The notes below the pieces were generated by a model. It saw only the letters and a program-made list of their open reading frames with translations. It was not told the DNA's origin and searched no databases. DNA of 64,000 nucleotides from Diphasiastrum complanatum (taxonomy: Eukaryota; Streptophyta; Lycopodiopsida; Lycopodiales; Lycopodiaceae). The stretch spans positions 18,618,668 to 18,682,667 of the forward strand of contig CM055111.1 of assembly GCA_029204225.1 (NCBI GenBank), in the 5' to 3' direction. Positions 2,388 through 64,000 of this stretch are shown here, in pieces; within the stretch, counting starts at the first letter, position 1, and each line of letters opens with the position of its first letter. The translations under genes were made by a program, and so were the position numbers.

Positions 2388-5325
2388 ATGGCTTCAATTA
2401 GGAGCATAGAGAACAAGATCTGTACAATTCTTGATTCTTCAAAGTTTCTAGTTGGAAAGTTAAAACATCACTGATACTCAAGGGCGAAGGTTTATTTCCC
2501 TAGGTGGATGGCACATAAGAGATGCCTACGACATTAGGCAAAGAGCTACGTGAGTGGAGGAGAAAAATGACAAGGTAGTAGCCTTGATATCTTCATCCAT
2601 CGAAGATAGTCTCACACTTGACCTGGCTACACTCTCCAAAGCTAAGGAGATGTGAGATGGACTACTCACAAAATTTCAAACAAAATCAAGAAGTCAAATC
2701 ATGATGCTGGAAGATCAGCTGGCAAATCTATAGTGGGATGGGAAAGACCTCACTTATTTCGTAGGGAAGATGAAGGATTTGTTTCTATCACTACATAACT
2801 CTGGAGCAGAGAATGCAATGTCAGCTGAGAAGCATCTCACTTACCTGTTGAGAGCCTTACCCATATCATTCTAGACAATGAGGACCCTGCTCGTGAAAGA
2901 TCCTACCATGAACCTCGAAAAGGTGATTGTCAAGATTCGAGAGGAAGTCGAGGCGAGAGAACATCTTGATCACAAAGATGGTTCTGACCAGGCCCTCTAC
3001 GGCAACAAAGAAAAATCCAAGAAAAAATTTATGCCTAAGAGGGAGTCAAATTAGAGGCAGGATCGTGATCAGCAAGCAAAGAGGACTAGCAAAGGCAATT
3101 GGAAGAGCAAAGGGAGGTCGAAGCAGCAAGGTGGAGAAAAGAAGACTTGCGTGAGATGCAGAAGAGATGGGCAGACGGTTGATACATGATGGCTCAATCC
3201 AAAAATTGAGTGTGTCCACTCCCACAAGAAGGGTCATGCAGCCATGGATTGCCATAAGAACCTGAGAAACAAATCAGCGTAGAACAAACAAGAGAGTAAC
3301 AATAGTTCATCCTATGTCGAGGAGCTTGAGAGCTCAAAAATGGGCGAGTGATCCTAGATTCAGGAGCCACCTCACACTTCATGACATCAAGATGAATCAT
3401 GTCTGATTTTAGAAGTGCAGATCCTTCAAGATTCATAGTTCTTGGAGATGGATCTAAACATCAAGTGAACGGTATTGGTTCACTGTGGATCAACACCAAT
3501 GGCAGAGACAGACGACTCGAAGATGTTTTGTTCATGCCTACATTGTAGCAAGACTTGCTTTCTGTAGCAAAAATAGCAGATGCAGAAATGCGTATGACAT
3601 TTTTTGATGAAGCATGCAACATGGTTGACGCCAGTACCAGTGCTCTGATCGCTCAAGGCAGAAGGAAACGTAGTCTATATCATCTGAAGGTATGCCTTCC
3701 TGCAGATCAGGTGCATCAGACTCATGATGACTCGCCATAGACTCTGTGGCACAGGAGACTCTGCCACATGAACTCAATGGCACTTTACCAAGCAAGCCAT
3801 CATGGAGCAATAACAGGGGTCAGTATCTCGCATACAACCAGTTCAACCACCTGTGATGCATGTTTGAAGAGTAAGATGTCACGCACTCCATTCATCAAAG
3901 ACTCCTACAGAACGATCAAGATTCTAGAGTTAGCGCATTCTAACATCTATGGGCCTATCAATATGATCTCAATAGGAGGTTCAAAATATTATATAACCTT
4001 CATTGATGATTATAGTAAATTTGACAATGTTCTGAAAAACTTGATAAATTCATAGAATATGTGAATTGGACTGAGAGATATACAGGCAACAAGGTTAAGT
4101 AGATCAGAACAGATCGGAGTGACGAATACATCTCGAATCGCTTTACTGACTTCTACAATGATTGTGGCATCATTCATACAAGGACTAGAGCCTACACACC
4201 GCAGCACAATGGTGTTGTAGAAAGAAAGAACAGGGCCCTGATGGAAGCTGTCAGATGCATGATGGCCTACTCGAAGGCTGCAAGGGTACTGTGGGCTGAA
4301 GCAGTAGCTACAGCCGCATACATCCAGAACAGGACAGACAAGCCTGGTGTCCCTCACACGACACCACATGAGTTATGGTGGGGTAGAAAGCCCAACCTGT
4401 CTCACATCAGAATCTTTGGCTGTGCAGCTTATGCACATATTCCTAATAAGCTTTGAAAGAAACTTGATGAGAAAGCCGAGCAGGGATTTCTAGTAGGTTA
4501 TGACAACAATTCGTCATACTACAGAGTCTACATGCCAGACACGAACACTGTGAGAACAGTGAGAGATGTCAGATTTGATGAGAGCAGGACAATGGCCAAT
4601 GACGATCCTGTCAGCTATGAAGTTCTGAAAAGACAGTACTATGACCTGCCGCCAGTGACAGAGGGAGGAGAAGATGAACACAAAAATGAAGATTTTTGAG
4701 TCACTTCCCATTCGAGTGACGAATCTGAAAACGAAAGATTTGAGAGGCAACTTACTTCTACAATTCCTGTAAACCAAGATGGTTCCGGATCTAGCGGAAC
4801 AAACAAAGACAAAGACATTGTTGTCCTAGGAGGAACTCCTAGAAGCTCGACAAGACCACGAAGAGCGCCAGCAAGATATGTGCCAGGTAGCTCTGCTTCT
4901 ACATCAGAAGAGTTCTGTGGATTCAATGGCGAACCACAGACTTTCAAGGAAGCGATTGAATTTCTAGAGAAGGACAGATGGATCCAAGCCATGAACGAAG
5001 AGACGGAGTCCATGAGGAATAACCAGGTATGGACGTTGCAACCATTACCATATAAGCGTAAGACTGTCAAATGCAAATGGATTTCCAAGCTCAGATACGG
5101 CCCATATGGGAATGTCATGAAATACAAGGCAAGACTGGTAGCGAAGGAATTTTCTCAGAGATATAGTATTGACTACTCTAAAACCTTCTCTCCTGTGGTC
5201 AAACATCCATCCCTACGTCTGTTATTTGCATATGCAGCAGCTTATGACCTCATGAACCACATTGTGCACGAGAAGACAACCTTCTTGAATGGCAAGCTAG
5301 ACGAAGAGGTCTATATGGATCAACC
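2388..5325 (+). pseudogene. Copia family A gag-pol, 5' part (outer copy)
   Basis: Decayed gag-pol reading from an ATG at 2388. Gag is broken by many stops and frameshifts. The protease active site survives as DSGAT near 3358. Integrase follows at about 3745-4450, with the H-x-H and C-x2-C zinc residues (WHRRLCH, CDAC) but an HSNI motif where the first catalytic aspartate should be. The last catalytic region, NGVVERKN, is kept. Reverse transcriptase begins near 4880 and runs through the YMDQP motif, then stops abruptly at 5325 where another family A LTR starts. The missing C-terminal half of RT plus RNase H is found on the minus strand at 25051-26044. No part could make a functional polyprotein. 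Confidence 0.85.
5321..5325 (+). repeat. Target-site duplication CAACC, left copy
   Basis: CAACC lies inside the outer element's RT codons for D-Q-P, directly before the inner LTR that starts TGAAG. The same five bases follow the inner 3' LTR end at 26044-26040 on the minus strand, where the RT frame resumes as P-G-Y-V. The pair is what a 5-bp duplication from a copia insertion would look like. Confidence 0.7.
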
Positions 5326-5935
5326 TGAAGAAACAAAATGTTTCTAATTACAAAGCCTTGCTAGCTTTCAGCCCTCAACCCGATGAAGACATTCGCGAAC
5401 TCGAAGATTTGGAGACACAAAGCACAAAAAGTTTCGCCAACACAAAAGTCAAAGAAAACGAAGACGAATGGTTCGTGAACACGAAAGTCAAAGCAGACAA
5501 AGACGAACGGTTTGTGAACACGAAAGATTCATGAATGAGAATCTTTTGCGGTCCAGTACGAGAGAAGGCAAACGACCAAAACAAAACCAACGATAGAAAC
5601 AAAACCTTCTCCTGCCTACATGCTCCAAAGAGTACCAGCAGGATCATGCAAGTACCCAGAAGTACAGATTTATGATCTGATGGTATGACATCAGCAGATA
5701 CATTTTAGGTTGTGGCTAACCTGTGACTCTTGTAATTCCCTGATTAGTTGTAGATGCTTAATCACTCTAATCTCATATTTACATAGACCATACTTACTGG
5801 ATGATACTTGACATATAGATCAACAGAATACACATATATGAACTCCATCCAAGTCGCAAGAGGATCGTGGTTCCTATCGTGAAAGCTTCGCGACTATGAA
5901 ATCCAAATCGCGATACATGAATCTGATTCTCATCA
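5326..5935 (+). repeat. 5' LTR of inner (nested) copia family A element
   Basis: It starts TGAAGAAACAAAATG and ends CTCATCA. Compared with the 1041-bp partner LTR at 26045-27085 (minus strand), it lacks about 430 bp in the middle, near 5835. It holds three 39-bp tandem units starting at 5433, 5472 and 5511, which encode a repeated F-x-N-T-K-V-K-like pattern when read in the frame that continues from pol. Confidence 0.8.
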
Positions 5936-6051: not shown

Positions 6052-6990
6052 ATGGCTTCAATCAGCAGCATGCAGAGCAAGATCTGCACAATACTTGATT
6101 ACTCAGGATCTAACTTTCTAGCCTGGAAAGTTAAGACATCTTTGATACTCAAGGGTGAAGGCCTATTCTCCTGGGTGGATGGCACATAAGAAATGCCTAT
6201 GACAACAGTCAAGGAGCTACGCGAATGGAGGGAGAAAAATGACAAGGCAGTAGTCTTGCTATCATCTTCCACCGAAGATAGTCTCACACTTGACCTGGTT
6301 ACACTCTCCAAAGCTAAGGAGATGTGGAATGCATTACTCACCAGATTTCAAAGGAAATCAAGAAGTCATATCATGATGCTGGAAGATCAGCTGATGAATT
6401 TGCAGTGGGATGGAAAAAAACTCACTTCTTTTGTAAGAAAGATGAAGAATCTATTTCTGTCACTACATAACTCTGGAGTAGAGAATGTTGTGTCAGCTGA
6501 GAAGCAGCTCACGTACCTGTTGAGAGCCTTACCCAGATCATTCCAGATGACAAGAACCCTGCTCGCAAAAGATCCCGCCATGAACCTCCAAAAGACGATT
6601 GTCGGGATTTGAGAGGAAGTCGAGGCCAGAGAACATCTTGATCACAAAGATAGTTTTGACTAGGCCCTCTATGGCAACAACGAAAAATCAAAGAAGCAAT
6701 TTAAGCCTAAGAGGGAGTCCAACCAGCAAGCAGAGGGAACAAGCAAAGGCAACTGGAAGACCAAAGGTAGGTCAAAACAACAAGGTGCACACAAGAAGAC
6801 TTGTGTGAGATGCAGAAGAGACGGGCATACAATAGATACCTGTTGGCTCAATCCCAAGATTGAGTGTATCCATTGCCACAAGAAGGGTCACGTAGCCATG
6901 GATTGCCGCCAAAACCAGAACATAGAACATATAGGAGAACAACAATAGTTCATCCTATGTCAAGGAGCTCGAGAGCTCAAAAATGGGTGA
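6052..6990 (+). pseudogene. Copia family A gag (inner copy)
   Basis: Gag of the inner element from an ATG at 6052. The longest clean stretch is 6193-6612, a helical UBN2-type gag core. It is followed by a frameshift and then a nucleocapsid segment at about 6795-6910 with two perfect CX2CX4HX4C zinc knuckles (CVRCRRDGHTIDTC and CIHCHKKGHVAMDC). These would bind RNA during particle assembly. Similarity to the outer copy ends near 6990, just before the protease, and the sequence changes completely. RT through RNase H of what appears to be the same inner element sits on the minus strand at 27086-28447; protease, integrase and the start of RT are missing. Confidence 0.8.
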
Positions 6991-7074
6991 ATAAAGAACG
7001 AACAAAAATTGTTCGACTGCCTATATCTGTGAAGATGTTCAAATAAGTCAAGTACAGGAACAGCCCTCCGAACA

Positions 7075-7797
7075 AATGCTCATCATCTGGTCTTTAGTCG
7101 GCCTTCCAGGATGGATTAGACGCGAGCTTAAATAAAATGACGAATATACTAGCCTAAAGTTAGCTATGTCTGATGCCATCAAGGAAGAAGACGAAGGATC
7201 ACATGTTGACGAATCCAGAGAAAGGAAGGCACCACGTGCTCTTGCCCATGAGTCGAGGCCAATCAAGGACACCCGAGATCAGCTTTAAAAATCCCAATTG
7301 GAGTTGCTTAGTAAGCAACATCAACTACATATGGAGAAACTCACCAATGAGTTTCAAGCTACCCTGAAGTCTATCCAAAGCAGTATGCCTGGTCAGTCAA
7401 ACCCTACACATGTACCTTATAGACGAAAACCAATATGGGGCCCACACTGCCGGGCTACGCATCCTGCTGATGCTTGTCCTTCATATCAGCATATCCAAGC
7501 ACATACAGTCCAACGATATGAAGAACAATCGGCAAAATTTGGAAATGCCTTGACTTCTCATAAATATCCACCAGAAAGTCCAGAACCACTAGCCATACAA
7601 GATGGCTATGCTGTTATACAAGGGCCATTGCACACTAGATGTTTCATCTATGGTGAAACTAGCCACTTCATGGTTGATTGTCTAGTCAAGACCAAGTACC
7701 ATGCTGAGTGTCCTGACTGTATCAGAAAACACAATTCCAAAGACTATCCGAAAACAACCAACTACGATCCTACCTGCCCATCACGTCAGTTATGAAT
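7075..7797 (+). pseudogene. Gag-like zinc-knuckle protein remnant
   Basis: One reading frame runs through this stretch with two internal stops; the cleanest part is 7298-7795. An N-terminal helical, probably coiled-coil segment (around KQHQLHMEKLTNEF) is followed by a proline-rich linker and three cysteine-histidine clusters. The second, CFIYGETSHFMVDC, fits CX2CX4HX4C except that the second cysteine is tyrosine. The first and third fit CX2CX3HX4C with one cysteine lost in each (to G and to Y). The layout suggests a retroelement nucleocapsid, but it does not match the copia gag proteins here and I do not recognise the family. It abuts the truncated inner family A gag. Confidence 0.4.
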
Positions 7798-16261: not shown

Positions 16262-16393
16262 GTGCGATTCAGCTGGCAGTGTCCAGTGATCGCATCTAAA
16301 CTCCATCCGAGTCGCAAGAGGATTGTGGTTCCTTCGTGGAAGCTTCGCGACTGCAAAACCCAAATCGCGATACACGAACCTGATTCCTCATCA
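16262..16393 (+). repeat. Family A LTR fragment (3' end only)
   Basis: About 130 bp match the last part of the family A LTRs (CTCCATCCGAGTCGCAAGAG block, AAGCTTCGCGACT block). It ends exactly at the LTR terminus CTCATCA, with no primer-binding site after it. It is a truncated solo remnant, and its left edge is abrupt. Confidence 0.7.
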
Positions 16394-16650
16394 AGAACGT
16401 CACACAAAACATCGCGAGTTCTAACCTAAATATGAATTTACAAAGTGCAAGTAGGCCTTTACATGAATTTAGGCACTATAACACATTTACATGTACAATA
16501 TAAACAATACTTTTGGATAATGTGGGATCATGAGGCTCCACATATCCCCTTCCTCAGCTGTGCAGTGGCTCGCAAACAAATTGCTTACAATCTTCTTTGT
16601 CACTTCCTGCTGGCTGGCTTTCTATGGAAAATAGCTTTTGCTCGGGCTTT

Positions 16651-18195
16651 ATTTCATTCATTGACTTGCTCTAAGGTCATCCCTTTTGTAGAAAGGTAGT
16701 AATTGTTCTTCTGGTTGTAATCTTCCTGAAATGATAAATTTGAATAACCTCCCATTCCTTGATTTCCCAGTGGTGCAAGGGGGTTGTCGATCAATGTGTT
16801 ATTTTCAAGATGAGTGTACCAACTATCCCCAGACAAGATTTCAGACATCTCAGCAGAAGGGACAATTAGTGAGAGGGCTGCATATGTATATTCTGGAAAT
16901 TTTTCTTTAATGTACAATTGTTGAATGGACAAAAGGGCATATGAAATGAGAGAACCAATATTTACATAATTGTAAGTATAGTATGGTTTGGTTATTGGGT
17001 TAGTGGAGCGAAGTATATCATTTGCTTTAACTTCCTCCAAATAATGAGAATAATTAGCTTCCCAATCTGTGTAGATTTTCCACAGATCAGGGAATAATAG
17101 CTGACTAGAGAACTTGGAAGGAGTTGGATCAGGGCTAGGAACAACTCAATTAACATCAAAAATGTTAATTGAGTCTAGCTTATTCCGATACTCATCCAAA
17201 GCTGGAAAAATATTGTTTTCAAATGTTTTTAGATATTCTAGGATATATATATGCAAAGATCCTGTAACAACATGGATATAGTTAGTTTGCACACTGAGCT
17301 TATTCTGAACAATGGCAAGAGCAAAGATACCTTTTTGGTGCACTGTTAGTTTGGCCCAAAAAGTGTTTAGGCTAGAAAAAATCCAAGGGCTTTCCCATTG
17401 TTCTTTTGTATAACCAAAAAGTTTTGGTGAAAGAAGGTAATCCATTCTCCACTGGAGTTTTGGACTATTAAAAGGTAGAATAAAAAATGTTAGTTCTTGT
17501 TGGAATGTATGAAATTCTGTCTTTAGTAGTGAATACACGACCTTGTTCTTCCTCTCAACAGCTTTCAATGTGTGATGCTTCAGCCTGCTATGAAATGATT
17601 GCTAGAGTTGCTGGTTGGTCTAAAGAAGCTATGTCATTGGTTGCTTTTGGCTTCACAGCATCCTCAGGGTCAGTCTGCATGTCTTGATCTTTCTGGATTT
17701 GCTTAAAAACAATATCTGTCTAGATGGCCTTCTCTGATGTATCTTTAGCTGGCTCATCCATCTGCATAGACTGGTCTTGGCGTTGGACATGTTCTTTATC
17801 TTCAAAATTTTGGATTTGGCTTGATTGAAACTTAGCCTCTTCCAGTTCTTCTTTCAATTTCTCATATGAAACCATCTAGGGTTGCAAATCGCCATAGAAT
17901 TGTCTCTTGGGCTTGTTTCTTATAAATTTGGTTGCCTTTCCTTAGCAGAGTCTGTAGAATTCTACAGCTAGGCAACAGAGTTCTGAAGCTGCTTTGATTT
18001 GCTTGGGCACTCTCCTTGTTGGTAATGGCATTGCTGAGTTTGTCGCTCAGCTCCTCGTTACTACTCTGCAAAGTAGCTCGTGCAACATCTGACTCAGAGC
18101 TCAAGAAGACACGGGGTCTCTTGGCCGTGATACGTTTAGGAGGAAGGGAGACAGCTGGCCTTCGAGATCCAGCCTTCTTGGGGACAGCTTTCTTC
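16651..18195 (-). pseudogene. Coiled coil plus unrecognised C-terminal domain (family X, copy 3)
   Basis: Reading leftwards from about 18195, a basic linker (around KRITAKRPRVF) leads into a helical, heptad-like region (NEELSDKLSN, later SYEKLKEELEEAKF) down to about 17590. That region is broken by two frameshifts and several stops. A second part, 17568-16654, is one frame with a single stop at 17146. It carries a domain shared with the two plus-strand copies near 28.5 and 55.8 kb. Shared marks are TKEQW-x2-PW then FW-x2-L (TTEE-x-DEPW then FW-x2-L in the others), an IL/IF-A-x2-Q helix, PDLW/PLLW, and SIQQ/AIQQ. It lies directly downstream of an H3-like fold in the same direction, with only a frame change between them. 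I do not recognise the C-terminal domain. It could be a gag-like or a host protein. Confidence 0.55.
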
Positions 18196-18649
18196 TCTTC
18201 CTCCTAGAGGTAGTAGGCACGTTGGTTCTATCCATAGGCAGGTCTCTAGAGGTGCTGGCATTATCAACATGCAGACCAGAATATCTGTCCCGAAGCCTTT
18301 TGAGAATGAAAAAATCCTTTGGCATGATGGTGACACGCTTACCATGCACTGCCAAAAGACAAGTATCCTCAAAAAACTAGGACAGAAAATCTTCTGCAGC
18401 ACCCTGCAAGGCCTGCATGGCTATCACGGCAAAACAAATATCCAGGCCAAGTGACAGAGTGACATTCCATACAGATCGGCCGAAAGGAGCTCTAGGGATC
18501 AACAATTCAGTTGATCTCTGGAGTTTTTTGATCTCCCTCAGCCAGACCTGCTTCCTGCCACGCCTACAGCCAGTACCAGGGGGAACACGAGAATGGGATG
18601 GCTGTATAGTGGTGATGGCACGGGCGGTGGATTTGGTCTTGGCGATCAT
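18101..18649 (-). pseudogene. Histone H3-like fold with C-terminal extension
   Basis: The frame from the ATG at 18649 gives an H3-type protein. The N-terminus, AKTKSTAR, mirrors the canonical ARTKQTAR. Residues 37-51 read LREIKKLQRSTELLI, one of the most H3-specific blocks. Residues 78-89 read MQALQGAAEDFL, and 100-112 read AVHGKRVTIMPKD. One in-frame TAG at codon 91 (18377-18379) interrupts it in the alpha-2 region. The tail is about 11 residues shorter than standard H3 and has no lysine at the K9 position. LLIP and AAEDFL recall centromeric H3, but the loop-1 insertion seen in many CENH3 proteins is absent. After the fold come about 57 residues of basic extension, ending at 18101; a shifted frame then continues into the coiled coil. 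This is a diverged H3 variant or retrocopy, now broken. Confidence 0.7.
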
Positions 18650-19131: not shown

Positions 19132-20692
19132 TTGCGTATGAGAGTGATATTTGAAACTTCAGTTCTATTATTTTTGTTTAAATTGTCTAATTTTGAATCC
19201 GGTTTGTTTTTTTTATTTAATGAATTTGGTAATACTGATAGGTTGGACTATTTCAAATCTCTTTTTTCTCCTTTTCTTTTTATTCTACCTTCTATAATTG
19301 AGGGCCCTAGTGTGGAGGCATTTTTTGGGATATATCTGAGATTTAAGACCCTGCTTAGTACTCCATTATTCAGGTCTCAGAATAAAGACATGATTCATTA
19401 TCAGGACCTGGTGGCACTCGACAAGCATATCTACAAAGCTAAGCTTGACATAATGTTTACCAAGTTACATAATGATTTCAAGTCTGTAGATGAGTGCCGA
19501 ATTCACAATAAAAAATGTAGATTTTTTGATTTTCAGTCTGCTTTTGTTTTTTTTCTTTTGTTAAATATTTCTGATGATTTGGACTCTGTGCCCTCCACTT
19601 CTAAAACAGCTTCTTCTAGTGGTACAAAGTCTGAAAAGTCAAAGATTGTAGATATAGATACCTTTTTTTATTGACACGAGGGTTCATTTAGATGATTGTT
19701 CTGATTTTGATCCTGCTCGAAATAGGGCTGCTTTTATAGGCCCTAGAACACCTACTACCCTTTCTCCTTCTGATAAATCTTTGATCACTTCGCCTACTTA
19801 TATTATAGATAATAATTTCTTTTTGACAATATCGGATATATCGGATCGTTTTAACTTCACTGAAGCTGAGACTCTTTGCATAGAGACTCTTTGCATAGGG
19901 CTGCATTTATAGGCCCTAGAACACCTACTACCCTTTCTCCTTCTGATAAATCTTTGATCACTTCGCCTACTTATATTATAGATAATAATTCCTTTTTGAC
20001 AATATCGGATATATCGGATCGTTTTAACTTCATTGAGACTGAGACTCTTTGCATAGAGCATGCTGATGATCTTCTCCTTGGTGTTGACGATGTATATACT
20101 GATAAGTTTTATTCAGGGAAAGATTGCTTGAAAATGGCTGTGGAGGAAATGCGCAACAAAGAAGATGATCTACCTTCCAAGGAGGAGTTTCTTAGAATCC
20201 AAAGTCAACTTGGTTTTCCACGGCCAACTGTCTATTCACCAACAATATTGACATCAAAAGGTGGACATAATATTGATGGAGAGACAATAATCAGAGAAGA
20301 CAAAGCTGAATGCGTAAGTTTTTGTCTCTTATCAAGTACTAGAGATCTTCTGCAGGAGAATTTTCAAGAGATTATGCACTCGGGCACTATCTAACGTCCT
20401 TCAAGAATAATGAGATAAGTGTTGCCCATTCAAAGTTTCATCAACATGGTGAAACTATGATTATGGCAATCAAGGCACTGTCTCATTTTCTTGGAGGACA
20501 TAATTTTATGAAATAAGGTGCATAAAATAATTTTTGTAAAGAAAACTACTGCGGTTAAAATTTTAGGATATGGACCAGTGAATTCCATGCTCAGATCATC
20601 TCATTTTGTAGTGTATGCTACTTACGTTGATCTGAGTAAGCATGAAAACTATGAGCTATTGGATCCATACGAAAGAAGAAAAATGGTTGCAT
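19132..20692 (+). pseudogene. Unrecognised gene, decayed, divergent from the H3-like gene
   Basis: Coding-like sequence in several frames that can be followed for about 500 codons. The first part (19132-19674) ends in a T7 run; removing one T in thought would let the frame run on into DDCSDFDPARNR. A 173-bp tandem duplication then shifts the frame. The following part reaches 20394 and contains VDDVYTDKFYSGKDCLKM. A frame change near 20360 continues through HYLTSFKNNEISVAH to about 20516, and the last part (about 20523-20692) ends DPYERRKMVA. Hydrophobic segments occur near the start. I recognise no domain. It starts about 480 bp from the H3-like gene on the opposite strand, so the two may share a promoter region. 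Confidence 0.4.
19722..20067 (+). repeat. 173-bp tandem duplication
   Basis: Two head-to-tail copies start at ATAGGGCTGC (19722 and 19895). They differ at only a few positions, so the duplication is fairly recent. Because 173 is not a multiple of 3, it breaks the reading frame of the surrounding gene. Confidence 0.9.
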
Positions 20693-20930
20693 GATTCTAA
20701 GTTGTAACTTCCATTGGAAAAAATATCGGAAGCAGACTACATACTGCTGAATTGTACTTTGTAAATATTTTTATTTAATATACAAAATTTTATTGTGTGT
20801 GTATAGCCTACTGGCTTGTATAAATTTGCATGCTTTTTGAAATTTTTTATAATCCGTCGATTTTGTATTATGACAAATTTGAATTCTTCTGTAAAACCAT
20901 TGAATGTCAATAAATAAACTGTTAGAATTG

Positions 20931-21929
20931 TTATAGACTTTCTCCTTTTGAGCAATACACTTCATTGATATGAGATGGATTACCAACTATTGTCTGCATA
21001 CCATGGTTTAACATGTCTCTTTTTTTTAAAGGATGAAATGGTCGTGGGATTGGAAACTTTTTAATATTTACCTGTGCAAATGCCTCCTTTATCATCTTAA
21101 ACATTGTTGCATATGCTTCCCTACTGATGCTAGAAAAGTCACATGCCCTCTGAAGCAATGTAGTGTCTAATATTTTTTCAACTTCATCCATAATGCTATC
21201 AGTAACTGAAGCCTTAATCTTTTTCATTTTGTTATTATTTAATATTGATTTCATAGATTTAGAAGTCAAGATAGAGCCTAGTGAGTTTCCAATTGAAATC
21301 TCATCGGCCAAATGGACTTCAACAACCAATGCTGATCTGCATTGCAAACATAATGCTCATGAAAATGTCAGTAGAAATTAGGACACTCATAGTATTAACA
21401 GCACTATATAATAAGCAAATCAACAGAAAGTTGAAATGAATAAATAACAAAATTAGCGATTATGAATAAATCAAAAAGTTCAAGCAATTTTCAGTACCAA
21501 ATAAACTATAACTTACTTGAATGCATGGATTCGTCTTTTTCTATGACCTCCTTTGGATGATAGATCACATATATCCTTGTTTACCAGTCTTTGTTTCTTG
21601 TTGCTTCGGACCTTTCTGTTGAGTACATCCATATCTTTAACAAGAGATAAAAATGAGATATGGATGGATTGAAATGCAATTTTTATCTCATCATTACTAG
21701 TTGTATAATGATGCAAAGAAGATTTCAACCTTTGGATCTCCTCCTTGAGCATCTCATTTTTATCCAAACAAGTTTTCATCTTTGTAGATTTTTCTTCGCA
21801 CTCCTTTGATATTTTCCTTGATTCCTCTTCCAAATAATGTATTCTTTGCATTAAATGTGCATTCCCATAGAGCATCAAATTCTCACAGTAACCCAAAAGG
21901 CCATTTGTACCATGACACATATAGATCAT
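20931..21929 (-). CDS. Coiled-coil protein, two exons, function unknown
   Basis: Exon 1 (21929-21517) encodes a clear coiled coil (RIHYLEEESRKISKECEEK, then KNEMLKEEIQRLKSS) and ends in a basic stretch, KGGHRKRRIHAF. A donor GTAAGT starts at 21516 and an acceptor TTTGCAATGCAG ends at 21337, giving a 180-bp intron. The phase matches: AA from exon 1 plus A from exon 2 make a lysine codon. Exon 2 continues with SALVVEVHLADEIS and ends at a stop at 20931, after a helical segment and a PIPRPFHPLKKRD motif. The start codon is uncertain because an upstream exon may exist; the first ATG in the ORF is used here. I do not recognise the family. The matched splice phase suggests a real or recently real gene. 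Confidence 0.45.
21337..21516 (-). other. Predicted intron
   Basis: GT-AG intron, 180 bp, AT-rich, with a GTAAGT donor and a GCAG acceptor. It joins the two coding parts of the coiled-coil gene in frame. Confidence 0.5.
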
Positions 21930-26044: not shown

Positions 26045-27085
26045 TGATGAGAATTAGATTTATGTATCACAATTTAAATTTTGCTTTGCGAAGCTTTCAT
26101 GATAGGAACCACGATCCTCTTGCAACTCGGATGGAGTTCAGATGCGATTGCTGGACACTGCCAGCTGAATCACTCCTACAATCCTCCAGAATGTAGTTTG
26201 GCTCTGCTGATCTACATTTATAAAATACTGCAGCATTCAATATAGTTTCAACCAAGGTGTGGAATTAAAATGAACAAGAAAAACTCAGACACACGATTAA
26301 CAGTAGAAGCATTTGCATTCGAGATCTGACACAACAAGAGATATTATCTATATTGAACTTCCTTTGCTTTCTTCAAGCACTGCATGTAAATCCACATAGT
26401 GGGTTGGTGTGAGAGAAACATGGTTCTCTCACGAGTAATCGTCTTGCTTTACTAGCGGACAATTAGATCTTTATGGATCCTGATCACAGAGCTCGTCTCG
26501 CACGTAGGCGGACTTGTTGTCTGTATTTGGTCTTGATTGCTTACTAGCATAAGACTACTACATTACATTGTATGTGTATTTTGTTGATCTATATGTCAAG
26601 TATCATCCAGTAAGTATGGTCGCTCTATGTAAATATGAGATTATAGTGATTAAGAATCTACAACTAATCAGAGAATTATAAGAGTGGCAGATTAGCCATG
26701 ACCTAAAATGTATCTGCTGACGTCATACCATAAGATCAGATATCTGTACTTCTGGGTACTTGCATGATCCTACTGGTGCTCTTTGGAGCGTGTAGGCAGG
26801 AGAAAGTTTCATTTCTGTCGTTGGTTTTGTTTTGGTTGTTTGCCTTCTCTTGTACTGGACCGCAAAAGATTCTCGTTCGTGAATCTTTCATGTTCGCGAA
26901 CCGTTCATCTTCGTCTGCTTTGACTTTCGTGTCCGCGAACCATTCGGCTTCGTTTCCTTTGACTTTCATGTTTGCAAAACTTTTTGTGCTTCGTGTCTCC
27001 AGATCTTCAAGTTCGCGAATGTCTTCGTTGGGCTGAGGGCTGAAAGCTAACAAGGCTTTGTAATTAGAAATATTTTGTTTCTTTA
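26045..27085 (-). repeat. 3' LTR of inner copia family A element
   Basis: On the minus strand it begins TAAAGAAACAAAATA after a purine tract (GAGAGGGAGC) and ends CTAATTCTCATCA at 26045. It is followed at once by CAACC (26044-26040), matching the bases before the inner 5' LTR at 5321. It is the longest family A LTR here (1041 bp) and carries three 39-bp tandem units near its start. Confidence 0.8.
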
Positions 27086-28449: not shown

Positions 28450-30115
28450 TAAGAATTGTAGAAGAAGAAGGGCGAATTACCAGACACAACTATAAGAGAG
28501 AGAAGTACGTATAAGCGGATTACAGGATAAGCTCACAAGAAGGGATGAGGAGAATAAAGCATTGTTAGATCTCAATGCACAATGTTTTGAGAGAATAATG
28601 AAACTCTAGAGAGAAGCCGGTGGAATGCAAATATACATGTGATTGAATATGAGAGGGATTTATTACAAACCCAACTCGATAGCATCACTATAAGCGGACC
28701 AGTCCGTAGTGACAACACGAGACTCAAGGAATGGACAAAGAATATTCTACACGCCCATGTCGTGGACAAATTGGAACAGTTTGTGGAAGAGCAGGGATAT
28801 TTGCAAGAGGAGAACATGCAACTGGAAAAGAAATTAGTTAAACATGAGGGTTGTTATCGGTGGCACACCATTGTAATAACTGGTTGTCGCATCCAGAAGT
28901 AGTTCAAGAGCAGGCAAACCTACAACAATCTATGACCGATGTGCAGCACTTAAAACAACACTTGTTTGACTTACAAGGAACACTTCAAGACAAAGAAATA
29001 GAGTGGTAGAAATTACAGGAAGAGGCAAAGGGCTTATTGAAAAACATTGTGGATTTGATAGATCAACTCAAGCTTAGATGAGATTTCGTGCAAGTGGATA
29101 CAAGTCAACACCAACATAGCCAAGCTATGGGAAAGTCAATAGAAAATCAATCCCTGATGGTTGTACCACGTCGGGTGAAAAGGCCTAGAACAAGATTGGG
29201 AAGGAAGGTAAATAGCATGTACAAGGCTTTACAGCCTTGGATACATCAACGCAACATCGAACATGCATTGAATATTGACTATTTGTTCTTGTCAAAGGTG
29301 GATATCACAACAGAATGTGAGTTGTATGAGTTCTGGCAGAATTTGGAGTTGAAAGAACAAACAATTTTGGCTTGGGCATTCTTACAAGGCTGGATGAAGA
29401 TATATATATATGAAGTCGAACATGCCTTACCGATACATAATGACTTGCACTATCAAACCATTAAGAAGTGCGCAAGGTTTACAACATGGGCAGCAAGATC
29501 TTGTAACAAGTTTGATGCGGTGTATGCTACAGTGGCAAGGCATATAAATATCACATACCCATTATTATGGCAGCTATATTACTGATGAGAAGAGGGTTTC
29601 CAAGAGGAAAATCGACAAAGCAACTCAGAATTTCCACACTCATGGCGCTTTCCAATTCATGGACTTTGTTGTAATTGCTATACAACAGACATGGGAGTTG
29701 TTTGTCAACAAACGCTATACGATGATAACCACTGAATGGCTAGAAAAGACAATGCTAATAGATCATGGTTAGTATCCAGTGTTATGGATGAAAAACAAAA
29801 TCTGCTGCTCCAACCTATTTGGCATGGACTAGCCATGCTAGTACCAGAAACACGAAACTGGACATCGTCGCAACTGCAACAACATTGATAGAAATGTCGT
29901 GGTCAAAGAAAATAGCCAGTGAATTTAAATTGCTTACCATTGATTCACATGAAAAGGGTGAACCTGTAAGTCATTTCTTGGGGGTACGTACATCCGACAA
30001 GAGTGACAGTGAGCATCATCGCAAGAGGTTAAACGAAGAAAGAAGATGAAGAAGACCCAGACTTGACACTCGGTGGAACTAGTGTTTTTCCACCAGGGAA
30101 TATGTGTTAGGTCCA
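28450..30115 (+). pseudogene. Family X copy 1: coiled coil plus unrecognised domain
   Basis: A long heptad-patterned region (28500-29080; parts read EEQGYLQEENMQLEKKL and LQDKEIEW) is broken by stops and frameshifts. A basic segment follows (VKRPRTRLGRKV), then the C-terminal domain in one ORF to 29585. Marks include NIDYLFLSKVDITTE, FWQNLELKEQTILAWAFLQ and YPLLWQLYY. A frame change leads into FQFMDFVVIAIQQTWELF and then SSVMDEKQNLLLQPIWHGL (to about 29888). A final frame ends LTLGGTSVFPPGNMC at a stop near 30108. The domain order matches copy 3 at 16651-18195 and copy 2 at 55807. No H3 fold is seen upstream because the copia A fragment starts there. Function unknown. Confidence 0.55.
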
Positions 30116-43670: not shown

Positions 43671-43954
43671 TGTGAAAAATTGTCAACTAGTAGTATTTTC
43701 CTAACTTGAGATTTTGTAGGCCTATGGCCAAATAAAAGTTAGAGATAGGTTCATACATGTATGTAGAGGCCCAAAGTATGTGTACACTACTTTTGAGGTC
43801 ACATTAATTAGAGGAGGTCGAGTGTGGAGCTCTTCTATTGGCTCATAATTTGGTGCATTCCTATTTGACCAAATTTCTAGGTATATGGGTGAATCCTATT
43901 GGACCCCAATTTTAGCCTATCATAAGACAAGTGGCCAAGAGGCACTATGGCTGC

Positions 43955-43962
43955 TATAAATA
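43955..43962 (+). promoter_or_regulatory. TATA box of C1 LTR
   Basis: TATAAATA, 284 bp into the LTR, in a TGCTATAAATAGCC context. The same box lies at 49163 in the 3' LTR. It would start genomic RNA synthesis within the LTR. Confidence 0.7.
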
Positions 43963-44108
43963 GCCATCTCCACGAGTATGTACACATCTCATTTTCATTC
44001 TATTGAATGAATGTTATGCTCTTTGAAGATCCATCTTCTTCTCTCTCACTTTTTTGTTCATATCTTGCATTCTAGCCACTAGAATTGTGATTTCTTTGTT
44101 GCTATGGC

Positions 44109-44122
44109 TTCACACGTGTGAA
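44109..44122 (+). promoter_or_regulatory. G-box palindrome TTCACACGTGTGAA
   Basis: A perfect 14-bp palindrome with a CACGTG core, a site type bound by plant bZIP and bHLH factors. The identical 14-mer occurs in the otherwise different C2 LTRs. It lies downstream of the TATA box here. Confidence 0.6.
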
Positions 44123-44323
44123 ATGCAGGTTGTAGGCTCTGAAGTACGGACAGGGACAGCAAGTTTCTGTTTGTGGAAGCTTATGATCAGATTTTGATGT
44201 TTAGTTGATGTTTAGTATGCTTAACATCACAATTTCTATCATTTTTTCAATCTAGATGTGCATAACTTCCATGGCCAAGATCTTTATGAAACTTTAGCAT
44301 CTTTTGGATCTGAGTTTTTCACA

Positions 44324-47900: not shown

Positions 47901-48883
47901 TAATTTATGTGGATGACATTATTTTAAGTGGAGGGAACAAGGAAGATATAGAAGATATCAAGAAAGCACTAAAAAAGGAATTTGAAGTGCATGATCTTGG
48001 TCTTTTGAGCTATATCTTAGGAATAGAAGTAATTAGAACTTCTCAAATCACTTTTATTTCACAAGAGAAGTATGCTATTTCTATTCTCAATAGATTTCAT
48101 ATGGTAGATGCAAATCCTATTGATACACCTATGGAATCACATGTAAAGCTAACTATAAGAGGTAATGAAAGATCCTTCGAGGACATTACTCTCTATAGGA
48201 AGCTAATAGGTTCTCTTATATATCTAACCATCACAAGACCTGATTTATCTTATTGTGTTGGTAGATTAAGCCAATTCATGCAAGATCCTAGCATAGAACA
48301 TTGGAAACTAGGAAAGAGGATCTTGAGATACATCTCGGGAACAAAAGATTTTGGCATTGTTTATAGAGGCTCATCACCTAACTTATTTGGTTTTTCAGAT
48401 TCAGATTTTGCAGGAGACCTTATGGATAGAAAATCCATAAATGCACATGCTATTTTCATAGGTGATGGAGCTATCTCATGGATGTCGAAGAAACAAGCAA
48501 CTATATCACTTTCTTCTAGTGAGGCCGAGTACAAAGCTTTGACATCATGCACAAAGGAGATGGTGTGGATCAAGAGGATGATTATGGAGCTTCATTTGCT
48601 GGATTTTTCAGAGAGTCCAATCATCTTTTGTGACAACCTTTCAGCCCAAAGTCTAGCAAGCAATCCGGTTTTCCATGCAAGGAGCAAACATATCGAGGTG
48701 GCTTACCATTTTGTGAGAGAACAAGTGTTGGCAAAAGAGATCAAGCTTGAACATGTCCCATCAAAGGAATGTGTGGCTGATATCTTTACCAAAGCATTGG
48801 GAAAGGACTTATTTTTCAAGCATAGAACAAGTCTTGGTGTACTTTCTAAATCTATGCTAAAACTAGTTGAAGAGGGAGTGTGA
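44933..48883 (+). CDS. C1 gag-pol polyprotein, intact, 1316 aa
   Basis: One uninterrupted frame encodes the whole copia polyprotein. Gag (residues about 1-240) is a UBN2-type core, with the zinc knuckle CFYCGVKGHFASDC at 245-258. Protease has DSGATSHM with the catalytic aspartate at 306. The integrase zinc region has H439, H444 and CEECALSKSH. The integrase core has D503 (HSDIHG), D565 (RSDNGGEY) and E601 (NGVAERKN), spaced D-D-35-E. In RT the active site YVDD is at 992-995. RNase H carries FSDSDFAGD, SLSSSEAEYKAL and DNLSAQ motifs. All catalytic residues are present. The ATG at 44933 begins the conserved MATNGG start also seen in C2 (MASNGG). The stop codon lies inside the first five bases of the 3' LTR. 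Gag and pol share one frame, so the gag:pol ratio must be set some other way. Confidence 0.95.
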   Translation: MATNGGYMLESNDRLTSLNYSTWKVRMESLLEMNELMDIVVGVEERPLAPQEQLRYDKREKKALHMIKMNVTNELIKEVGKCTSSSEAWEALKKVYESKSTSRVLTLRRQIFSCMQKKSENGHAFVLRVKALNDELACINDGINNEELVQVILNGLLDDHANLVQSYAIQKCLPSVGDLQEVLLAEEFRLQARVGASSTSQGGEEEAMFSKGKFKGKGKSNWSKGQDQGEHSTFGKKKDRSKLKCFYCGVKGHFASDCFKKKRDQGEKQTNLTIDEGGDELLSNDAFVMSSCLLANHGDIDPWWIDSGATSHMTYHKEYFSSLMAFDGDRKVIYTANDGECAIKGIGTIPISLSTNRNIELKDVLLIPSITKNLLSVSQMLDKGFKVEFDGDACLIKKGCSIIAKGKRQGKLFKLDACVVANQVGCMANEQMSIQEVWHKRMGHLNYKALEVIAKKEVVRGLPKSLTCLNHVCEECALSKSHRLPYTRSISRSKMPFSLLHSDIHGVTTISNGGAKMYVTFIDDFSRFCWVYLLKSKDEVFDVFVKFKVAIETQFTTKIKCLRSDNGGEYISNKFKAFCDEHGIKREYTCPRTPQQNGVAERKNRTLCESAKAMRLNANLPKPFWSDALLCANFLCNRWPSVVLKGKTPFEALFGTKPNVKFLRTFGCICYFNITLDDRTKEDPSSRKGIFVGYSEVSKAYRIYVPSIKKVFTSRDVIFDESNIPKVVSSDDGVVATNVLDDNGVDDTLDVDVEEASSSQIPRRTPRHKVKPSRLTYDGKGKQVVDGSNYAFLTSFDVPSCVDEARQEEEWIQAMDLEFEALMKNNTWRLVELPKGKSAIGCKWIFKVKTNQDGSINKLKARLVAKGYAQEHGIDYEETFAPVAKMVSIRVIISLATLYGWDLWQLDISNAFLNGDLEEEVYMEQPESYVSHSKPNHVCFLQKSLYGLKQAPRSWYARLNSFLLSQNFTMSEYDHSLYFRISANDVTILLIYVDDIILSGGNKEDIEDIKKALKKEFEVHDLGLLSYILGIEVIRTSQITFISQEKYAISILNRFHMVDANPIDTPMESHVKLTIRGNERSFEDITLYRKLIGSLIYLTITRPDLSYCVGRLSQFMQDPSIEHWKLGKRILRYISGTKDFGIVYRGSSPNLFGFSDSDFAGDLMDRKSINAHAIFIGDGAISWMSKKQATISLSSSEAEYKALTSCTKEMVWIKRMIMELHLLDFSESPIIFCDNLSAQSLASNPVFHARSKHIEVAYHFVREQVLAKEIKLEHVPSKECVADIFTKALGKDLFFKHRTSLGVLSKSMLKLVEEGV
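48869..48878 (+). promoter_or_regulatory. C1 polypurine tract
   Basis: GAAGAGGGAG directly before the 3' LTR. It primes plus-strand DNA synthesis. It is also the coding sequence for the last residues of pol. Confidence 0.85.
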
Positions 48884-49531
48884 AAAATTGTCAACTAGTA
48901 GTATTTTCCTAACTTGAGATTTTGTAGGCCTATGGCCAAATAAAAGTTAGAGATAGGTTCATACATGTATGTAGAGGCCCAAAGTATGTGTACACTACTT
49001 TTGAGGTCACATTAATTAGAGGAGGTCGAGTGTGGAGCTCTTCTATTGGCTCATAATTTGGTGCATTCCTATTTGACCAAATTTCTAGGTATATGGGTGA
49101 ATCCTATTGGACCCCAATTTTAGCCTATCATAAGACAAGTGGCCAAGAGGCACTATGGCTGCTATAAATAGCCATCTCCACGAGTATGTACACATCTCAT
49201 TTTCATTCTATTGAATGAATGTTATGCTCTTTGAAGATCCATCTTCTTCTCTCTCACTTTTTTGTTCATATCTTGCATTCTAGCCACTAGAATTGTGATT
49301 TCTTTGTTGCTATGGCTTCACACGTGTGAAATGCAGGTTGTAGGCTCTGAAGTACGGACAGGGACAGCAAGTTTCTGTTTGTGGAAGCTTATGATCAGAT
49401 TTTGATGTTTAGTTGATGTTTAGTATGCTTAACATCACAATTTCTATCATTTTTTCAATCTAGATGTGCATAACTTCCATGGCCAAGATCTTTATGAAAC
49501 TTTAGCATCTTTTGGATCTGAGTTTTTCACA
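48879..49531 (+). repeat. C1 3' LTR
   Basis: 653 bp, apparently identical to the 5' LTR, with the TATA box at 49163 and the G-box palindrome at 49317. Confidence 0.95.
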
Positions 49532-55530: not shown

Positions 55531-55806
55531 ATGTGCCAGAGATAAACATAGTGAAGACAATCAGAGACGTCAAATTCGATGAGAGCAGAACAATGGCCAA
55601 CAATAATCCTGTCAGTTATGAATTCCTTGAAAGACAATACTAGGATCTACGAACCGTGACAGAGAGAGCAGAGGATGAACACTCAGACGAAGTCGCACCT
55701 CATTCGAGCAACGAATCAGATGAAGAAATATTCGCATGCCAGCCTATTGCTACAACACCTGTAAATCGAATTGGTTCTGGACCTAGCAAAACAGATAAAG
55801 ACAATA
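55531..55806 (+). pseudogene. Copia family A fragment (integrase-RT linker)
   Basis: Matches the outer family A copy at about 4520-4800. Shared blocks include the VRFDESRTMAN-like segment, a diverged acidic stretch, and the GSGPS-like part before a lysine/aspartate run. It stops at 55806, where family X copy 2 begins. Confidence 0.7.
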
Positions 55807-56839
55807 ACTGGTTGTCGCATCCAAAATTAGTTCAAGAGCAGGCAAACCTACAACAATCTATGACCGATATGCAGCACTTAAAACAACACTTGTCTGACTT
55901 ACAAGGCACACTTCAAAACAAAGAAATAGAGTGGTAGAAATTACAAGAAGAGGCAAAGGGCTTATTGAAGAACATTGCGGATTTGATAGATCAACTCAAG
56001 CTTAGATGAGATTACGTGCAAGTGGATACAAGTCAACACCAACATAGCCAAGCTATGGGAAAGTCAATAGAAAATCAATCCCTGATGGTTGTACCACGTC
56101 GGGCGAAAAGACCTAGAACAAGATTGGGAAGGAAGGTAAACAGCATGTACAAGTCTTTACAGCCTTGGATACATCAACGCAACATCGAACATGCATTGAA
56201 TATTGACTATTTGTTCTTGTCAAAGGTGGATATCACAACAGAAGAGTGAGATGAGCCATGGGAGCTATGTGAGTTATATGAGTTCTGGCAGAATTTGGAG
56301 TTGAAAGAACAAACGATTTTGGCTTGGGCATTCTTACAAGGCTGGATGAAGATATATATATATGAAGTCGAACATGCCTTAATGATACATAATGACTTGC
56401 ACTATCAAACCATTAAGAAGTGCACAAGGTTTACAACATGTGCAACAAGATCTTGTAACAAGTTTGATGCGGTGTATGCTACGGTGGCAAGGCATATAAA
56501 TATCACATACCCATTATTATGGCAGCTATATTATTGATGAGAAGAGGGTTTCCAAGAGCAAAATCGACAAAGCAACTCAGAATTTCCACACTCACGGCGC
56601 TTTCCAATTCATGGACTTTGTTGTGATTGCTATACAACAGACACGGGAGTTGTTTGTCTACAAACGCTATACGATGATAACCACTGAATGGCTGGAGAAG
56701 ACAATGCTAATAGACAACGGTTAGTATCCAGTGTTATGGATGAAAAACAAAATCTGCTGCTCCAACCTATTTGGCATGGACTAGCCATGCTAGTACCAGA
56801 AATACGAAACTGGACATCGTCGCAACTGCAACAACATTG
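55807..56839 (+). pseudogene. Family X copy 2: coiled coil plus unrecognised domain
   Basis: Very similar to copy 1 from its ACTGGTTGTCGCATCC word (28872) onward: the QANLQQSMTD coil, a stop-broken stretch, the basic PRTRLGRKVNSMYK segment, SKVDITTEE, FW-x2-LELKEQ and the YPLLWQLYY end. It keeps a DEPWEL segment that copy 1 has lost; this segment makes the match to copy 3 (TKEQWESPW) clear. It is truncated at about 56839 compared with copy 1. Several stops and frameshifts. Function unknown. Confidence 0.55.
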
Positions 56840-57710
56840 CCCAATGTCATTTTTAAACTTAGAGATCACTTTTTAGAGTTGGGTCCAAATTGGGATTCAC
56901 ATGAATCTTGTGATTTCTAATGTACTTTTTGTGGACCCTTGGATCAAGTTGGGTCCAAGATGAATGGTTAGGATCATTGTGAATATTAGCCAATAAGATT
57001 GAGAGGCAAGGGCTTTCCCCATTTTATAAAAAGACACCATTTGTACACTATTTCCATGCTTAATGAGAAGGAGGAAACTCTATCATTTTTGGAAGAGAAG
57101 CATCCTCATTTTCTATTCACTACTTGCTATTGCTCTTGGTTGTATTTTCTATTGCTTTCTATTTCCATGTTTTATTGTTTGCCATAGTGAATGTTTTTCC
57201 ATTAGCAAGCATAAGGAGCATTTGAGCTAACCTCCACCCTCACTCTCTTTCTCTCTATTTCTCTTCTCTTCTCAATCTCTTCTTCTCCATCCCTTCCCTT
57301 CAACCAAAACTATGATGAATGTTAGTGTAGAGGAGTAGAGTTAAAGAGGAGTAGTATAGTGGTGAGTAGAGTTAAGGGAGAAAGTAGGAAATTAACTAAA
57401 AGTAGCATCTATGCATAGTTAGGCACCTATCTAGTGATCTAACCTTTGTTGACAGGCAGAAGGGCTATACTACGAAAGATCTTCGACCCCACATTGAGAC
57501 CATGACAAAATTCTACTATAACATGTCTAGCCACTTAAGGGACAGGCTGGGACACTTTTACAGAGGCAACTATATGCTGATTTTTTGCTAATAACCGGGT
57601 TTTACATGTCGATTTTTTATAGTTTTGAAAAAAGAAATCTCAACATTAGTCCGATTTTCCGTGCAAAAATATCGACTAATAGTGTGGATCCGAAAATAGC
57701 ATAAAATAAG
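56840..57710. other. No recognised gene
   Basis: Spacer with a CT-rich stretch at about 57240-57300. The five bases before the C2 LTR are ATAAG, its expected target duplication. Confidence 0.4.
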
Positions 57711-58365
57711 TGTGAAAATTGTCAACATTTCCTAGCTAGTTTGAGGCCTAAATTGGCTAAAATTGTAAATAGTTTTGGTTCTGGAGTTTCACACGTGTGA
57801 ACCAGGCCACAATGTTTTTATTTACTGTATTTTTTCAGTATGATGAAGTGTCAAACTTCATACCCTTCAAAATGAGACCATTTTGATGTATTTTGGTCAT
57901 ATAAGCCATTTTTAGCTATTTTTCCTATATAGGGAATATCTAGGGTCAAGTACCTTCTAGAGAGAGGAGAGAGAGTCATCTTCCTCATCCATAAATAGTA
58001 GGGAAGTCGTGGAGAACAGGTTGGAGAAACCTTTTGTATGCTTCATTGAGATCAATAGATCATTGTCATTGTTTCTTCCTCCATTGAGAGCATTGTTGTG
58101 TGTATTGTCTTCAAGCTATTGTGTATGATCTTAGGTGCTTTCCAAAAGTGATAGGCTGATGTATTATGGACTGTATAATGCTATTTTGGGCCGCACTTGA
58201 TGTTTATGGAAGTTTCCATTTGTGATAAATGCTTTTTGATCAAGTTCTTTGCATTCTAGGTAGCATAGAATGTGTTGCCAATTCCTAGCTTATGTAGTTT
58301 GGAGTGCAAGCATTCAAGCCAATGATCTTGGAGTTTAGATCCACTTAGGATCTGTATTTTTCACA
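57711..58365 (+). repeat. C2 5' LTR
   Basis: 655 bp, from TGTGAAAATTG to TTTTTCACA. Its ends match C1 but most of its body does not. TATA-like words are CTATATAGGG at 57925 and CATAAATAG at 57990. The palindrome TTCACACGTGTGAA lies at 57788, upstream of them. Confidence 0.95.
57788..57801 (+). promoter_or_regulatory. G-box palindrome TTCACACGTGTGAA in C2 LTR
   Basis: The same 14 bp as in C1, but 77 bp into the LTR instead of 438. A second copy is at 63565 in the 3' LTR. Confidence 0.6.
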
Positions 58366-62500: not shown

Positions 62501-63492
62501 GATCTATGTTGATGACATTATCTTAAGTGGTGGTAACAATCTAGATATAGATGAAATCAAGATGGCACTCAAAAGAGAGTTTGAAATTCAAGATCTTGGT
62601 AAACTTCATTATATCTTAGGAATAGAGATTATTAGAACTTCTAAATCTACATTCATATGTCAAGAAAAGTATGTTAACTCTATTCTAAAAAGGTTTCATA
62701 TGGAAGATTGTAAAGTTGTTTCTACTCCTATGGAATCAAATGTAAAGCTAACTACAAGAAGTAATGAAAGATCCTTCAAGGACATTACTCTCTATAGAAA
62801 GCTAATAGGATCTCTTATATGGTTAACCATCACAAGACCTGATCTAAGCTTTGTGGTTGGTAAACTAAGTCAATTTATGCAAGATCCTAGTGAGGCTCAT
62901 TGGAAGCTAGGAAAGAGAGTACTTAGATACATCTCGGGATCTAGAGATTTTGGCATCTTGTATGGAGGTACTACACCTAACCTTTGTGGATTTTCAGATT
63001 CAGATTTTGCAGGTGATCAAATGGATAGGAAGTCAACAAGTGCCTTTGCAATCTATCTTGGAGATGGAGTGGTCTCATGGCTATCAAAGAAGCAACCAAC
63101 TATCTCTCTATCTTCCACCGAAGCCGAGTACAAGGCATTAACAACATGCACCAAGGAGATTCTTTGGATCAAGAGGATGTTATTGGATCTTCACTTGCTG
63201 GAACCAGAGAAGACTCCAATCATACTTTGTGATAACCTTTCAGCCCAAAGCTTGGCAAGCAATCCTGTTTTTTCATGCAAGGAGCAAGCACATTGAGATT
63301 GCTCACCATTTTGTGAGAGATCAAGTCATTGCCAAAGAGGTGGAGCTTCAACATGTCTCTTCAAAGGAGTGTGTGGCTGATATCTTCACCAAACCATTGG
63401 GAAAGGACCTATATTTAATGCATAGATCTAATCTTGGAATGTGCTCAAAGACTATGTTGAAACTAGCATCCAATGTTGAAGAGGGAGTGTGA
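59538..63492 (+). pseudogene. C2 gag-pol, one frameshift from intact
   Basis: The 1252-codon ORF from the ATG at 59538 contains gag and the zinc knuckle CFYCGIKGHFANEC (from residue 250). Protease DSGASSHM has its aspartate at 309. Integrase has catalytic D506, D568 and E604; RT has YVDD from residue 990; and most of RNase H is present. At 63268-63273 a run of six T, against a shorter run in C1, shifts the frame after NPVF and gives an early stop at 63296. The remaining 70-odd codons (ARSKHIEIAHHFVRDQ to EEGV) continue in the next frame to a stop at 63492. As in C1, this final stop lies inside the 3' LTR. A single-base homopolymer error in sequencing could also explain it. Confidence 0.9.
63478..63487 (+). 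promoter_or_regulatory. C2 polypurine tract
   Basis: GAAGAGGGAG directly before the 3' LTR, identical to C1. Confidence 0.85.
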
Positions 63493-64000
63493 AAATTGTC
63501 AACATTTCCTAGCTAGTTTGAGGCCTAAATTGGCTAAAATTGTAAATAGTTTTGGTTCTGGAGTTTCACACGTGTGAACCAGGCCACAATGTTTTTATTT
63601 ACTGTATTTTTTCAGTATGATGAAGTGTCAAACTTCATACCCTTCAAAATGAGACCATTTTGATGTATTTTGGTCATATAAGCCATTTTTAGCTATTTTT
63701 CCTATATAGGGAATATCTAGGGTCAAGTACCTTCTAGAGAGAGGAGAGAGAGTCATCTTCCTCATCCATAAATAGTAGGGAAGTCGTGGAGAACAGGTTG
63801 GAGAAACCTTTTGTATGCTTCATTGAGATCAATAGATCATTGTCATTGTTTCTTCCTCCATTGAGAGCATTGTTGTGTGTATTGTCTTCAAGCTATTGTG
63901 TATGATCTTAGGTGCTTTCCAAAAGTGATAGGCTGATGTATTATGGACTGTATAATGCTATTTTGGGCCGCACTTGATGTTTATGGAAGTTTCCATTTGT
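63488..64000 (+). repeat. C2 3' LTR, partial
   Basis: The first 513 bp of the LTR, matching 57711-58223 without visible difference. Confidence 0.93.

Follow-up and report, generated by a model that had tools for sequence, protein, structure and literature searches.

The histone H3-like sequence in a 64-kb stretch of Diphasiastrum complanatum DNA (C20:18618668-18682667, hereafter the window) is very probably the broken front part of an H3 gene belonging to a multi-gene DNA element, with the coiled-coil sequence that follows it being an unrelated repeat joined to it locally. At least two families of such elements in this genome share four genes, which we call g1, g2, H3, and g4, and one family A copy is complete between inverted repeats. 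The relevant features of the window are:

18377..18649, minus strand: N-terminal tail of the H3 gene and the beginning of its fold, up to an in-frame TAG at 18379-18377 (ORF, Pfam, and PDB match)
18275..18376, minus strand: remainder of the H3 fold, alpha-3 side (same frame, Pfam)
18084..18274, minus strand: the H3 gene's basic linker, which contains the frame change near 18200; the relatives L055 and L056 share it as far as the breakpoint
18083..18084: breakpoint, with the H3 element on one side and the coiled-coil repeat on the other (similarity of each side ends there)
16586..18084, minus strand: a separate, repetitive gene for a coiled-coil protein, decayed and 5'-truncated in this copy (similarity to relatives)
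19222..20688, plus strand: remnant of element gene g2 (collinearity with family A)
20804..21356, minus strand: remnant of element gene g1, transposase-like (collinearity with family A)
21512..21557, minus strand: short match to the 5' part of the family A element L011
28875..29887, plus strand: relative of the coiled-coil gene adjoining copia-like sequence, outside the H3 element
55803..56839, plus strand: relative of the coiled-coil gene adjoining copia-like sequence, outside the H3 element

The initial annotation had described a minus-strand H3-type reading frame with an ATG at 18649, and both the ORF reading and Pfam bear this out. PF00125 (Histone) matched the two halves of the fold separately (E=7.2e-10 and 7.1e-05) and matched the joined fold, with the stop written as X, at E=3.5e-21. 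The single stop reported inside the fold is the TAG at 18379-18377, beyond which the rest of the fold continues in the same frame, and the frame change reported downstream of the fold was located near 18200. Plant H3.1 was the best solved relative (E=1.6e-20), and the top PDB matches listed were H3 and CENP-A chains. Against reference sequences, the fold was identical to H3.1 at 44 of 83 positions (53%) and to the CENH3s of Arabidopsis and maize at 38 and 40 of 83 positions (46-48%). The window sequence is a genuine H3 fold, closest to H3 among histones. It differs from a short intact H3 ending soon after the fold by its stop and its frame change. The predicted structure of the H3 part was of low confidence (mean pLDDT 37.9), and a profile search in six frames found no second H3 fold in the 64-kb window.

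We asked how the fold relates to the coil downstream. The initial annotation had proposed that an ancestral gene fused an H3 fold to a long coiled-coil protein and that the window carries a broken copy of it. The two parts do share a strand, with 100-200 bases and few lesions separating them, and the join occurs at 15 places. However, only the adjacency stood, and the single gene did not: similarity of the window to the coil-gene relatives L047, L050, L051, and L052 begins abruptly, exactly at 18084, and similarity to the H3 gene in L055 and L056 stops at 18083-18086. A 301-base query across the breakpoint gave 1395 first-look candidates, and 40 places were scored. The join was present at 15 of these, all within C20:17178754-20140145; 12 of them, the window included, matched the whole query, and three matched query positions 136-301. 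The other 25 places, on 16 contigs, matched only the H3 side (query positions 1-178, or 1-175 in one case). Because all the joins are confined to one ~3-Mb stretch, the H3-coil junction arose once and was multiplied locally rather than being ancestral; with the join block present 15 times in 3 Mb, the C20 region must therefore have been amplified locally.

Relatives of the coiled-coil gene point the same way. A genome search gave 4689 first-look candidates, of which 126 were scored, and we fetched eight stretches (L047-L054). An H3 fold was absent at the join in six of the eight in a forward-frame profile search and was present only in L053 and L054, both of which carry the join. Upstream of the window breakpoint, L051 and L052 contain more coil; L048, L049, and L050 contain more coil and then an acidic N-terminal part; L047 contains more coil and then a reverse-transcriptase-like frame (copia-like by eye). 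On the H3 side, L055 and L056 enter another domain at the same base. An intact homologue with fold and coil in one reading frame, which the initial annotation suggested looking for, did not emerge: the join is local, and no intact frame crosses it in the window, L053, or L054. Most relatives of either side examined lack the other, and we reject a gene fusing H3 with a coiled coil; its ancestral form is extremely improbable. Two distinct repeats meet at this breakpoint.

The coiled-coil gene itself was read correctly in the initial annotation as a coil and a C-terminal region beyond the frame change, lying in ORF pieces. The coil spans ~18084-17602 and lacks 113 bases at 17890/17889 relative to L050; the C-terminal region (17601-16654) lies in a single frame with one TGA, and its predicted structure was of low confidence (mean pLDDT 36.6). 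The resemblance of this region to two other loci in the window holds, but it is weak: the match to 56049-56390 has a tblastn E of 5e-5, and 28875-29887, a near-copy of 56049-56390 (94% identical DNA), has ~25% protein identity to the region. Since copies adjoin copia-like sequence twice in the window and the L047 copy is joined to a reverse-transcriptase-like frame, this gene seems to be found often in chimeras.

The window also holds other repeats. A 128-base sequence downstream of the coil gene (16266-16393) is shared with 5841-5935 and 26045-26171 and adjoins copia-like repeats. Two pairs of direct repeats, each 100% identical, lie around copia-like frames: 43671-44323 and 48879-49531 (653 bases), and 57709-58223 and 63486-64000 (at least 515 bases). 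Both pairs are probably very young LTR retrotransposons, the second running past the window end.

What follows the H3 fold in relatives lacking the join was seen in L055 and L056. These match the window at 91-92% from the leader to 18086 and 18083, respectively, and beyond the breakpoint they continue into an acidic, proline-containing stretch and then a further domain. The L055 frame stays open for 350 codons stop to stop, and in both loci the end of the domain is read in another frame. This domain is collinear with the C-terminal part of a family A protein, with 30-32% identity (a BLASTP search among four sequences gave E=2e-12 and 5e-9). We infer from these alignments that an H3 fold, a linker, and this C-terminal domain made up the ancestral gene of the family A and window subfamily lineages. 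The long C-terminal extension claimed for the H3 gene thus exists, as these other loci reveal, but it is a different domain from the coiled coil.

The genome contains many such H3 genes. In the 1.74-Gb assembly (5176 contigs), a search with a histone profile yielded 153 matches from 6325 first-look candidates. Among the 150 matches listed, 13 scored near 164 bits, 134 scored 95-110 bits, and three were partial. The five loci read from the ~164-bit group are canonical H3. In the group at 95-110 bits, some of which may be other host histones, 77 matches have no stops inside and 57 do. We fetched 20 loci at 10 kb, picked for long open frames or high scores rather than at random, and all 20 contained an H3-type fold. 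Two families were apparent. In family A (seven loci), the fold lies near the N-terminus, with stop-to-stop frames of 327-347 codons in six loci and a broken frame in the seventh. In family B (12 loci, one cut at the stretch edge), the fold lies at the C-terminal end, after a proline-rich stretch, in frames of up to 417 codons. Within each family, matching reaches far beyond the H3 gene. One further locus, L028, holds family-B-like and family-A-like H3 sequences side by side (4518-4910 and 6671-7414), diverged and each near a g2-like frame. A 32-base motif from the family B fold, with up to three mismatches, occurred at 195 places (97+98) and at none in the control.

At least one H3 gene lies between defined ends. 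A family A copy on C7 (C7:71809545-71818225) spans 8.7 kb between 35-bp inverted repeats, and its 3' repeat also occurs in L013, L024, and L026, that is, in four of the seven family A loci. The termini read CATTAG...CTAATG; the family B left end is CATTAG in four of the five loci shown, two of which have a common flank. The first 28 bp of the family A element, with up to two mismatches, occurred at 2101 places (1029+1072) and at none in a reversed control, a count of element ends and not of copies with H3. The order of genes in family A is g1 forward, g2 reverse, H3 forward, and g4 reverse. Family B keeps the four genes in this order, except that H3 and g2 are flipped with respect to g1 and g4. 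The window g1, g2, and H3 are collinear with family A. We found no element terminus and no inverted repeats on the window copy; because its own termini are lost, it is tied to the inverted-repeat elements by gene collinearity and H3 similarity. The window g1 has lost its middle, the section with the candidate catalytic part, between 20907 and 20904, and the g2 remnant contains a 164-base tandem duplication (97%; 19722-19885 and 19895-20058). The earlier suspicion of a link to a mobile element survives in altered form: judged by termini and gene collinearity, the H3 gene lies within a DNA element. An LTR retrotransposon carrying H3 was considered and rejected, as no long direct repeats flank the window H3 or bracket the H3 gene in the compared loci.

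Six end pairs were checked for target-site duplications, and two of these were mirror copies of one flank; the other four pairs lie on C1. No duplication was found in four of five copies (three of the C1 pairs and the C7 copy, the latter by eye), and one pair shows three bases, TCA. An absent target-site duplication is unusual for a cut-and-paste transposon.

The candidate protein for moving the element is g1. Its alignment between families A and B shows the conserved blocks KLDE, DLKTLKCMY, CxYC, HxCTxH, and QGMEKSH, in which candidate residues, read by eye, follow the order D, D, C(2)C, H-x4-H, E. CMC transposases (CACTA/EnSpm-Mirage-Chapaev-Transib) are described in PMC12730594 as having two D residues and an E, the motifs C(2)C and H(3-4)H lying between the second D and the E, and the candidate blocks of g1 run in the same order. 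The element departs from CMC elements in that g1 has no Pfam match and no consistent target-site duplication is present, and its termini are CATTAG rather than CACTA. Among the 14 element ORFs scanned, g1, g2, and g4 matched no Pfam family, including hAT, other transposase, capsid, and polymerase families, and a PDB search found no solved structure for the g1 core. We infer from the order of its blocks that g1 may be a DDE-type transposase moving the element.

The lack of capsid and polymerase families among these 14 ORFs also bears on whether the element could instead be an endogenous DNA virus that encodes a viral histone. The presence of several genes on both strands would suit a virus, and some DNA viruses are reported to encode histones (PMC9145170). 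However, the C-terminal region of the coil gene, the g1 core, and the family A H3 had no relatives in viral contigs, in single-protein scans that detect close relatives only. A viral origin is very unlikely.

We placed the element H3s among histones in a 28-row tree. The window H3 grouped with family A at a support of 99/97, and all element H3s formed one branch with less firm support (88/84, not starred). H113, R116, D123, and R129, residues of the H3-H3' four-helix bundle, are conserved in every element H3 compared: that of the window, two rows from family A, one from family B, and L028. The element H3s might act like centromeric H3 and direct where in the chromatin the element inserts or is maintained. 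They have P63 and A65 in common with plant CENH3 rather than with H3, and termini on C1 cluster in two stretches, 65.0-66.7 Mb with 27 and 95.0-98.6 Mb with 21 of the first 100 listed. Yet the grouping of elements with plant CENH3 has a support of only 63/21, and the length of loop 1, 27-28 residues, is that of H3 or rice CENH3. Some of the clustered C1 termini share flanks, in mirror orientation too, which indicates local duplication, and of the 81 exact matches to the family B motif, 75 are dispersed over 21 of contigs C1-C23. Such targeting is improbable.

The tails of the element H3s are unusual. The tail reads ARTKSTARA in L055 and L056 and AKTKSTARA in the window; ARTKQTARD in L009, the sole family B locus in which a tail was seen; and DRRKQTRRD in four loci of family A (L018, L020, L021, and L024), of which L011, L013, and L026 have variants. 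Most of the tails seen retain the K4 position, and none has K9. A tail without K9 is also found in plant CENH3, and descent alone could therefore explain its loss. Relative to plant H3 and CENH3, the element proteins have the H3 fold in common and differ by their long extension, their K9-less tail, and their separate clade.

Selection on the H3 gene was estimated from six family A copies (15 pairs, L011 left out) and nine family B copies (L012, L022, and L027 left out). The family A fold had a mean dN of 0.048 and a mean dS of 0.318 (dN/dS 0.15); the part after the fold had 0.093 and 0.146. Between the two family A subgroups, differences in the fold at codon positions 1/2/3 numbered 42/50/191 over eight non-independent pairs, against 210/191/236 in the non-fold part; the single pair L013-L018 gave 3/4/24 in the fold. 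The nine family B folds had a dN of 0.025 and a dS of 0.071. For close pairs the ratios ranged from 0.69 to 1.37 in family A, one pair from family B gave 1.71, and dN was about equal to dS among L055, L056, and the window. Small as the samples are, these comparisons show a family A fold apparently under purifying selection between lineages and young copies that seem to decay neutrally. Such a pattern would be expected of a gene needed by active lineages whose inserted copies decay.

The same data weigh on a simpler account, in which the element picked up an H3 gene once and carries it as a passenger without use (transduplication). Transposons carrying H3 are known in fungi (PMC6710886 and PMC3538342), many copies are broken (57 of the 134 H3-like matches listed have stops inside), and young copies evolve neutrally, all as a passenger would. 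However, the dN/dS of 0.15 and the 42/50/191 pattern in the fold count against it, as does the retention of H3 in both families and, together with its second domain, in the subfamily of the window. We consider a passenger unlikely.

Taken together, these results show that the window holds a decayed and truncated minus-strand element, comprising a g1 remnant, a g2 remnant, and the front of the H3 gene. A breakpoint at 18083/18084 joins a truncated copy of an unrelated coiled-coil repeat to it, and the joined block is present 15 times in 3 Mb. In active copies, g1 would move the element as a DDE-type transposase, and the element-encoded H3 would pair with host H4 and enter nucleosomes on element DNA. 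Plants have H3K9-dependent silencing; because silencing depends on H3K9, an element with a K9-less H3 might resist it, its nucleosomes lacking the silencing mark. It is possible, and we propose it tentatively from the tails and the fold, that element nucleosomes built in this way would be unable to bear the K9 mark and so make it easier for the element to escape silencing. The broadest form of the proposal, a superfamily of plant DNA transposons not recognised before (termini CATTAG...CTAATG, target-site duplication not consistent, a transposase outside known profiles) and encoding a two-domain H3 whose K9-less tail would block silencing marks, is more doubtful.

The nearest published systems are fungal. 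In Pyrenophora tritici-repentis, a hAT transposon carries an H3-like gene, H3L, that fully matches neither H3 nor CenH3 (PMC3538342), and hAT elements carrying H3 occur in Pseudocercospora fijiensis and five further genomes (PMC6710886). As described there, the Dothideomycete hAT-H3 elements are, like the plant element, DNA transposons with terminal inverted repeats, an H3-like coding sequence between their ends, and tens or hundreds of copies. The fungal elements have hAT domains, whereas none was matched in the 14 plant element ORFs, and the fungal H3 copies are reported as near-identical or inactivated, whereas the plant fold appears constrained between diverged lineages. The plant H3 also has a C-terminal domain of its own, in family A and the window subfamily, unlike the fungal hAT-H3 elements, and its host is a plant. 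No plant transposon carrying H3 was found in the open-licence literature searched, which yielded fungal cases only, and the word histone does not occur in the main text of a 2026 review of gene capture by plant transposons (PMC13317346). The plant host, the two-domain H3, and the lack of any hAT domain found are new relative to the published fungal cases. A functional analogy, and only that, is offered by VANDAL elements and their VANC anti-silencing proteins, an extra gene that could counter silencing (PMC10398659). VANC is not a histone, unlike the element H3, and the likeness is in the way of working only.

Automatic annotation of this genome may contain many false histone genes. If g1 represents a new transposase lineage, the element would stand further from known kinds. 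If our reading is true, a plant element family that keeps an H3 under purifying selection in diverged lineages would be a selfish element supplying its own nucleosome part, and the plant element H3 makes escape from H3K9 silencing directly testable.
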